NCBI RefSeq assembly: GCF_004217315.1
Contig: NZ_SGWR01000001.1
Span: 372,001-436,000, forward strand
DNA length: 64,000 nt
Direction of reading: 5' to 3'
DNA from: Corticibacter populi
Lineage (GTDB): Bacteria > Pseudomonadota > Gammaproteobacteria > Burkholderiales > Burkholderiaceae_C
Shown: piece after piece, positions 10,486-11,141 of the stretch
Layout: every line of letters begins with the position of its first letter
Numbering within the stretch: the first letter of the stretch is position 1
The notes under the pieces: model-generated
What the model was told of the DNA's origin: nothing
Database searches by the model: none
The model's input: only the letters and a program-made list of their open reading frames with translations
Made by a program: the position numbers and the translations under genes

Positions 10486-10608
10486 CAAGCCGGTACAAGC
10501 CGGCGCATCTCGCCTGATGGGCAAGCATTTGCACATGCCCCGGCCGTTGCATAAGAAGGTGCCGCGGCCTGCTTGGCATTCGCTGTGATTGGCGGCATTT
10601 GCCATGCC

Positions 10609-10620
10609 GGGGGGGGGGGG
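10609..10620. repeat. run of twelve G
   Basis: A 12-base homopolymeric G tract 60 bp past the 3' end of the minus-strand tRNA gene, in the 194-bp gap after ntrC. It is followed by GC-rich palindromic sequence (GCCGG...CCGGC). The rest of 10486-10679 holds nothing I can name. Confidence 0.8.
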
Positions 10621-10679
10621 CGCCGGCACATTCCGGCCGGATGCGCGCCAGTTTGCGAGGCGATGTGATCCGCGATGGC

Positions 10680-10990
10680 TGGTGCCCGAGGCCGGGGTCG
10701 AACCGGCACGACTGTGAGGTCGAGGGATTTTCGTACCACTTCGGCTTTCGCCGCCAGCGCTGTGCTGTTCGTGGTCTGGAGCACGCCTTCACCATAGCCT
10801 CGCGGCCGTAGGTGCCCGCCGTCTGCTCTCTACACCTTCCCGGTCTTTCCTGATCGGGCTTGGCTCGGCGTTGGCGCGGATGCTGGCATCCAGGGCGTTC
10901 GCCGAATTTGACGGGCGTCACCCCCGGCGTTTCCACCGGAGGGCTCAAATTGTTCAAGTCCCTTGTGTCTACCTATTCCACCACTCGGGC
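10680..10990 (-). tRNA. tRNA-Leu(UAA), interrupted by a group I intron
   Basis: The 5' exon is 10990-10956 and the 3' exon 10731-10680; joined, they make an 87-nt class II tRNA with encoded CCA. The acceptor stem GCCCGAG pairs with CTCGGGC. The anticodon arm AGGGA-CTTAAAA-TCCCT has anticodon UAA, there is a long variable arm (CGAC/GTCG), and the T arm is GCCGG-TTCGACC-CCGGC. The intron lies between U34 and A35 of the anticodon, the same position as in cyanobacterial and plastid tRNA-Leu(UAA). Standard tRNA models may report nothing here. The gene probably has its own promoter in 10991-11141, which is otherwise empty. Confidence 0.92.
10732..10955 (-). ncRNA. group I (IC3-like) self-splicing intron in tRNA-Leu
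   Basis: About 224 nt. The intron ends in G (10732) and its first segment holds GAG (10946-10944), which can pair with the exon's CUU to make P1 with the expected U-G wobble at the 5' splice site. Catalytic-core segments, read on the minus strand, are GTCAAATTCGGCGAA (10912-10898), CAACGCCGAGCCAAGCC (10873-10857), GAAGGTGTAGAGA beginning at 10839 with AGACGG downstream, and GCTATGGTGAAGGC beginning at 10798. A GAAA-capped hairpin GGCGAAAGCC (10752-10743) lies near the 3' end. From memory these closely match the Azoarcus tRNA-Ile intron. There is no room for a homing endonuclease gene. Confidence 0.9.
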
Positions 10991-11141
10991 GATGTGCAAT
11001 CGATGTTGCAATGTCTGTGCAGCTTTGCTGGCGTTTGCCGGACGATCGGCTGTGGCCAAAGCTGCAAGGCAGGCGATTCTACTGTATCCAGGCAGCACGG
11101 CGGCCGCGCAGGCGTAATCGTTTGGGCTGGCCAGTTGCTGG

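Follow-up and report, generated by a model that had tools for sequence, protein, structure and literature searches.

The minus strand of the 64,000-nucleotide Corticibacter populi stretch analysed here (the window) carries a tRNA-Leu(UAA) gene whose anticodon loop, CUUAAAA, is broken after U34 by a predicted group I intron (Table 1; bases are read on the reverse complement of 10680-10990). An earlier note, made from the letters of the sequence, had proposed a tRNA-Leu(UAA) interrupted at U34/A35 by 224 nt, with a spliced product of 87 nt. ARAGORN, run with introns allowed on positions 10600-11100, returned this very gene, a tRNA-Leu(taa) of 87 nt once a 224-nt intron at U34/A35 is removed, and placed it on the minus strand, a detail absent from the note. 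The same note had said that no homing endonuclease is encoded, and this is right: 224 nt leaves no room for one.

Default searches pass the gene by. ARAGORN at its default settings reports zero tRNAs in the whole window, and none of the 49 RF00005 tRNA matches in the genome falls inside it, in keeping with the earlier remark that this would be the only tRNA there and easy to miss. A covariance-model search for the intron, which the note had suggested, gave a match below the cut-off: RF00028 matches 10806-10965 on the minus strand over the whole model (positions 1-253 of 253) with an E value of 8.5e-6 and 29.9 bits, which is under the gathering score of 50 bits. At the curated cut-off the intron is missed, also in a genome-wide search with this family. 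Because the RF00028 score lies below the cut-off and default ARAGORN is blank, annotation at standard settings would overlook the gene.

Table 1. The interrupted tRNA-Leu(UAA) gene of the window and its parts
Feature	Position	Length	Strand	Remarks
tRNA-Leu(UAA) precursor gene, class II, CCA encoded	10680..10990	311 nt	-	ARAGORN intron mode and direct reading
5' exon, last base U34	10956..10990	35 nt	-	
Predicted group I intron, last nucleotide G (omega G)	10732..10955	224 nt	-	
3' exon, first base A35	10680..10731	52 nt	-	
Internal guide sequence GAGCCC	10941..10946		-	GAG as possible P1 partner of exon CUU, with a U.G pair at the 5' splice site
P7 5' strand GAGCA (guanosine-binding helix)	10824..10828		-	partner 10779-10783
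P7 3' strand UGCUC	10779..10783		-	
P3 5' strand GCCCGUC	10910..10916		-	partner 10814-10820 GGCGGGC
P8 region, CCUACGG...UAUGG motif	10792..10812		-	
P9 hairpin GGC-GAAA-GCC	10743..10752		-	

The interruption is a predicted self-splicing group I intron and is IC3-like. We set the helices on its own sequence and counted their pairs over a MAFFT alignment of 162 unique introns. The proposed helices are paired in 92.4% of cells, a share that falls to 31-40% once the 3' strand is displaced by 1-3 nt; the structure is therefore not a product of chance. P7 is paired in 810 of 810 cells and has two-sided changes at three of its five pairs (GC/CG and CG/UA exchanges); P3, paired in 1054 of 1134 cells, shows two-sided changes at five of its seven pairs. 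Such changes are also present in P4 (2/7 pairs), P6 (1/3) and P8 (3/4). Pairing is weaker at the first P3 pair (82/162 cells) and in the P2 helix (478/646), and P9, paired in 484 of 486 cells, has no two-sided change backed by three sequences. The MFE fold of the single sequence gives no signal (z -0.72). It is the pairing across the aligned introns that bears out the group I identity claimed in the earlier note.

The splice sites follow the same pattern. In the window's intron exon CUU lies opposite guide GAG and the terminal nucleotide is G; across the set a U precedes the 5' splice site in 173 of 188 introns and a G ends all 188, counts that hold partly by construction since both bases were demanded in the first-pass search. 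The features of IC3 type that can be seen in the sequence are a small core, the lack of P5abc, the anticodon-loop site and a putative P8/P9 tetraloop-receptor set. The P8 motif is presumably of the 11-nt receptor type. At 15 tRNA-Leu(CAA) intron loci (14 without one repeat; L071, L080, L081, L082, L102, L109, L118, L129, L141, L177, L183, L186, L205, L222 and L224) C replaces U before the 5' splice site, which would make this P1 pair C-G where U.G is the norm.

The strain appears to have no other gene for this tRNA. Its genome assembly (4.20 Mb, 9 contigs) is 99.68% complete, and ARAGORN assigns a type to 48 of its 49 RF00005 matches, the one without a call being a 100-nt match at C1:1018285. 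The leucine genes so typed are CAG (two), CAA, UAG and GAG. The earlier note had advised a check for a second tRNA-Leu(UAA) gene; neither the typed tRNAs nor pattern searches of the genome gave an uninterrupted tRNA-Leu(UAA) or halves of one. A CAA anticodon cannot read UUA. With no other UAA gene found, decoding rules make UUA decoding dependent on splicing, and most likely the strain reads UUA through splicing of the window gene, an event that we infer for this strain. It is very improbable that the gene is dead, with an intron that splices no longer and some other tRNA reading UUA. A cryptic intron-bearing tRNA would be no novelty, given that phage Daredevil is reported with clear plaques despite one (PMC10865867), but here no other UAA tRNA was found in a nearly complete genome, and the gene itself has kept both the counted core helices and the exon cloverleaf whole.

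The intron is not an isolated curiosity. A 20-nt P7 motif, with 1 mismatch permitted, is present in 58 of 299 genomes of the family, and a slightly looser motif in 38 of 300 genomes of the order and 44 of 299 of the phylum, some of the matches being without a resolvable tRNA. In a collection of named genomes the exact core pattern gave 66 stretches. The 64 that could be resolved comprise 37 betaproteobacterial, 16 gammaproteobacterial and 2 alphaproteobacterial cases, and 9 in unplaced or likely mislabelled bins. Exon resolution on 205 loci yielded 188 introns including the window's, or 180 distinct introns after 8 duplicates of gene and flank were dropped; the 17 P7-motif loci without a resolved tRNA lie in some cases at contig ends and are in others probably chance matches. 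One of these 17 (L079, in G110) resembles the Leu(UAA) case and was left out of the 27 family and genus introns discussed below.

The 180 introns occupy seven tRNA species. Leu(UAA) accounts for 112, Arg(CCU) for 19 and Leu(CAA) for 14; Ile(CAU) has 21 at site 36/37 and 9 at site 33/34; and the rarer hosts are Thr(UGU) with 2, Ser(UGA) with 2 and a phage Lys(UUU) with 1. The second tRNA-Ile(CAU) site, 33/34, is distinct from 36/37 and was observed at L067, L089, L106, L122, L145, L155, L161, L231 and L239. The group I introns in tRNA-Ser(UGA) (L142 and L230) are from two order-level genomes.

Plasmids and phages carry such genes too. The conjugative plasmid pCTX-M3 (NC_004464.2; L130 2388-2686; also L132) has an unannotated tRNA-Leu(UAA) near aac(3)-IId, with a group I intron of 213 nt (221 in the ARAGORN reading). 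The window's precursor matches 1281 of 72,556 plasmid records, most of which probably stem from the pCTX-M3-type element, judged by the 30 matches listed. Among complete E. coli genomes, 635 of 5426 have a related intron-bearing tRNA-Leu(UAA), with 589 of 670 places on plasmids, and none of the 15 matches listed has an annotated feature at the tRNA. Plasmid p1 of Cupriavidus sp. KK10 (L133) retains only the Leu(UAA) 5' exon and half the intron, a relic. In Gordonia phage Daredevil (NC_048021.1; L131 1672 and 1840-2151) a group I intron of 238 nt interrupts a cryptic tRNA-Lys(UUU) near the integrase, and the anticodon arm of this tRNA is present a second time about 170 nt away; Daredevil is the sole such phage contig among 64. 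IMG/VR contigs (L338-L457) hold at least 64 interrupted tRNA genes among the 120 contigs listed, mostly Leu(UAA), with Met/Ile(CAU), Lys, Thr, Asn and Arg types also present among the matches listed.

The earlier note asked whether introns of this kind moved between tRNA genes or were inherited with the tRNA-Leu locus. On a tree of the intron cores without P1, the tRNA labels need 12 changes, with a minimum possible of 9 and a shuffled mean of 62.2 (0 of 200 shuffles that low); the tree was built before duplicate removal, and 5 of the 188 introns were left out for want of an alignment anchor. Intron lineages are thus mostly faithful to one tRNA. The choice as posed is too narrow, since the entire intron-bearing gene travels between hosts. 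Exons and intron are identical, for example, in the gammaproteobacterium Pseudoxanthomonas winnipegensis and the betaproteobacteria Castellaniella defragrans, Acidovorax temperans and Tepidicella. In the pairs compared the flanks are also identical or nearly so, for up to about 270 nt on the upstream side and for 0.2 to several kb on the downstream side. Whole precursors identical across classes imply that the moving unit is the intron-bearing tRNA gene with neighbouring DNA. Judged from these sequences, the whole gene moves among alpha-, beta- and gammaproteobacterial hosts, in many cases on integrative elements.

The traces of these elements are split tRNA genes. In relatives, a native tRNA-Leu(UAA) 5' half, cut in the anticodon loop, lies about 175-225 nt upstream of the intron-bearing gene and continues straight into a conserved element end. 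An ungapped scan requiring at least 19 of 26 matches placed a native 5' half 150-300 nt upstream of 49 of the 111 Leu(UAA) loci that were eligible and of 11 of the 14 for Leu(CAA) (duplicates removed). For Ile it did so at 5 of 21 loci with the 36/37 site and 2 of 9 with the 33/34 site, and for Arg at 2 of 18; it found none at the Thr (0/2), Ser (0/2) and Lys (0/1) loci. The reversed-flank control gave 0 for every tRNA type (before duplicate removal). Downstream of five loci the ORFs encode TrbI, TrbG, TrbL and TrbJ-like proteins, TrbI being named by PF03743 and the others by reading. With duplicates removed, a trbI gene is nearby at 33 of 112 loci for Leu(UAA), 11 of 14 for Leu(CAA) and 1 of 9 for Ile 33/34, and at none of the other types, many loci having less than 1 kb of downstream sequence; in 34 of 38 Leu(UAA) cases, counted before duplicate removal, it lies at a distance of 260-287 nt.

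The other half of the native gene marks the far end. We matched a native 3' half in 9 of 30 genomes, all nine among the 12 that are element-linked and none among the 18 that are unlinked. It lies on the same contig as the intron-bearing tRNA in five genomes, in the same orientation and 51-63 kb apart, and on a different contig in three. When the native halves were rejoined, eight of eight were called tRNA-Leu(UAA) (G160 is not among the eight). At seven of the nine junctions a tyrosine integrase (PF00589, PF13356) begins about 177 nt away, with 90-100% identity from genome to genome; the remaining two have only some 220 nt of sequence on the integrase side. Both the trb end and the tyrosine integrase end were seen in G233, G130, G080 and G210. 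Leu(CAA)-carrying elements are inserted in tRNA-Leu(CAA), not in the UAA gene. We had considered tRNA-Gly as the attachment site of the element and dropped it once the split tRNA-Leu halves appeared.

Two further arrangements were observed. In G160 (L290 / L302, 2.67 Mb) a lone native tRNA-Leu(UAA) 3' half and an integrase-bearing element end lie 2.56 Mb from the intron-bearing gene, separated perhaps by rearrangement. In Sphingobium phenoxybenzoativorans (L194) the same element end and intron-bearing tRNA stand beside a partial core without any tRNA half, which looks like insertion at a secondary site.

All of these loci had first been found through the intron, and we therefore searched for the element end instead. 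Among 399 family genomes this gave 12 matches, of which 10 were already known via the intron and 2 were new. All 12 element ends are followed, within 156-203 nt, by an intron-bearing tRNA-Leu(UAA).

The sequence common to both junctions is CTTAAAATC, a 9-bp core (defined for Leu(UAA) only). In the element's own tRNA the intron splits this core as CTT/AAAATC. We propose that an element bearing conjugation genes recombines its core CTTAAAATC into the anticodon loop of the host tRNA-Leu(UAA). The insertion would split and kill the host gene, and the element would supply a complete intron-bearing tRNA-Leu(UAA) about 155-205 nt inside its own end. In the DNA of this replacement the intron would keep the core split; in the RNA, splicing would restore the anticodon loop. 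With the core so divided, the replacement gene should not be a target for the integrase, and we infer that this masking is why the intron is retained. At the level of sequence, the split native halves, the element between them and the intron-bearing replacement are all in evidence in relatives. The window gene, intron included, would have been gained horizontally, and the native intronless gene lost. We consider this full account probable: an element-borne, intron-split replacement, of which the window copy is a descendant that has displaced the native gene. A broader idea, that proteobacterial anticodon-loop group I introns are kept as DNA-level masks of integration sites and that stand-alone copies are fixed leftovers, is more tentative, and we put it at somewhat under an even chance.

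Phage contigs had seemed a source of general proof for masking. They failed as such: 63 of 64 with an interrupted tRNA have no second anticodon-arm copy (at least 11 nt) within 1.5 kb, and masking is therefore no general account of phage tRNA introns. The same count speaks for a rival reading in which a replacement tRNA is all that the element requires, while the intron masks nothing and persists as a neutral parasite because it splices well. The sections seen of PMC10865867 point the same way, in that they mention no intron in actinophage replacement tRNAs, so that an intron is probably not always needed. Such passive hitchhiking is possible, though we doubt it. The Leu(UAA) intron sits inside the core defined by both junctions; at linked loci of the Leu(CAA), Ile and Arg types the split native half stops in the very loop where the intron sits; the extra copy in phage Daredevil is of the anticodon arm split by that phage's own intron; and 12 of 12 elements found independently of the intron carry one. 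Introns of the anticodon loop would sit in that loop anyway, so their coincidence with the split site is suggestive and not proof. The many interrupted tRNAs in phage contigs without such copies (at least 64, among the 120 contigs listed) would also suit a role in tRNA protection, the intron-bearing gene or precursor evading the anticodon-loop nucleases of host defence. This is quite improbable, however, as the mature tRNA would have an ordinary anticodon loop.

How the gene came to the window is a separate matter from what relatives contain. By pattern match, the intron-bearing gene is present in 3 of 10 genomes of the genus and an intronless one in the other 7, with no overlap. Across family and genus a Leu(UAA) intron was resolved in 27 genomes, and in 26 of these the intronless pattern has no match; the 27th does have one, to a 3' half that ARAGORN leaves uncalled. 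In the window its neighbours are ordinary genes, ntrC on one side and a glycosyltransferase on the other. We recovered ntrC in six congeners, and the 1.2-1.5 kb read beyond it contains no tRNA-Leu(UAA) and no such glycosyltransferase; one intron-mode tRNA call inside ntrC of congeners was spurious. The two other intron-bearing congeners have the gene at one shared place that is not syntenic with the window locus. The window's exons share 75-82% identity with the five intronless sequences from congeners but 87-94% with 60 intron-bearing genes (58 from named genomes, 2 congeneric), a closeness that is partly chosen because an exact match to the window's intron core was the basis on which the named relatives were selected. 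Of the 20 Leu(UAA) introns nearest to it, 15 are element-linked, compared with 36 of the other 91.

The genome itself holds no native 5' or 3' half and no match to an element end, and trbI is absent within the window. The window copy thus lacks the split native halves that mark a tRNA-dependent element; it could act as a replacement tRNA. As possible element remnants we considered an integrase fragment elsewhere in the genome (69% over 48 aa), which has neither a tRNA half nor a core within the surrounding 3.1 kb, and four weaker integrase matches, which have no adjoining tRNA-Leu half; all were set aside. Ordinary flanks and the lack of element traces make the case for element descent indirect. 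With moderate confidence, we regard descent from an element-borne replacement as the most likely origin of the window copy.

Homing, reverse splicing or recombination could instead have brought the intron into the tRNA-Leu(UAA) already present in the host, to be kept there by vertical descent, with elements taking up such genes later. In the family and genus, 16 of 27 Leu(UAA) introns have no element link (tally before duplicate removal), and eight unlinked copies lie near tRNA-Gly/Cys genes, a place used by element-linked copies too. A route of recombination at tRNA loci in cyanobacteria is named by a title in the references of PMC3984707 (Rudi 2002). We nevertheless think this course unlikely, because the window's exons are closer to foreign intron-bearing genes than to congeneric intronless ones, its locus is not syntenic with that of the two other intron-bearing congeners, and exons and intron together are identical across classes.

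If replacement and masking are what these introns take part in, tRNA-borne group I introns have a job. Self-splicing tRNA introns and elements that integrate into tRNA genes would become one subject, the travel of endonuclease-less introns and their loyalty to one tRNA would be explained, and an essential tRNA would be replaceable by a mobile element's copy. The genes concerned also fall into an annotation gap: the window gene lies under the Rfam cut-off and is missed by default tRNA finding, and its E. coli relatives are without annotation among the matches listed.

The tRNA-Ile(CAU) IC3 intron of Azoarcus is a well-studied ribozyme. The window's intron is like it in having a small core, no homing endonuclease gene, a P3-P9 layout, a P8 receptor-type motif, a GAAA loop and a site in the anticodon loop, and unlike it in the tRNA that it interrupts and in its place within the loop (site 36/37 among our resolved Ile introns). 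The P7 pairs are GACUA/UAGUC in Azoarcus and GAGCA/UGCUC in the window. For the Azoarcus-like core described in the earlier note, the apparent likeness lies in the P7 and P8 motifs. A tRNA-Leu(UAA) intron of 231 nt, from the deep-subsurface Pseudomonas isolate D0715, was reportedly described by Vepritskiy and others in 2002 as an intron alone, and we know of no element context for it. It reportedly has the same tRNA, site, length class and CCUACG...UAUGG P8 motif as the window's intron, and is probably of the same lineage. Cyanobacterial and plastid tRNA-Leu(UAA) introns also share the tRNA and the U34/A35 site. Their sequence is far from the proteobacterial set, judged on one cyanobacterial example, which has a branch of 2.47 in our tree; the cyanobacterial intron pattern gave zero matches in viral contigs.

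Several published accounts touch on one side of the subject. Group I introns are described in tRNA-Ile2 of Acidovorax and Burkholderia (PMC8450103), betaproteobacteria are among the hosts of such introns (PMC4033280), and phage introns were at one time known in protein genes only (PMC3984707). On the side of integration, crossover in the anticodon loop is a known island type (PMC4383910), and one attB end lies in the anticodon loop of a tRNA-Leu (PMC3706429). Among open-licence papers, with limited coverage, we found none that links tRNA introns to integration sites.

The elements of the relatives, judged from their ends, are like Tn4371-family ICEs in that an integrase and trbI mark their opposite ends. 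ICE-AvDJ1, of Tn4371 type, extends from a phage-type integrase to trbI (PMC4465626), and in the open-licence papers searched we found no description of an intron-bearing tRNA-Leu beyond trbI. In tRNA-dependent lysogeny (Guerrero-Bustamante and Hatfull 2024, PMC10865867, in the sections seen) crossover by a tyrosine integrase takes place within a host tRNA at a core of about 10 bp, the host tRNA is not rebuilt, and the actinophage brings a cognate replacement. The relatives' loci have the same make-up: a short core in the host tRNA, a tRNA that is not rebuilt and a cognate tRNA on the element. Those sections concern actinophages and mention no intron, whereas the elements described here are proteobacterial, bear conjugation genes and carry replacements split by an intron.
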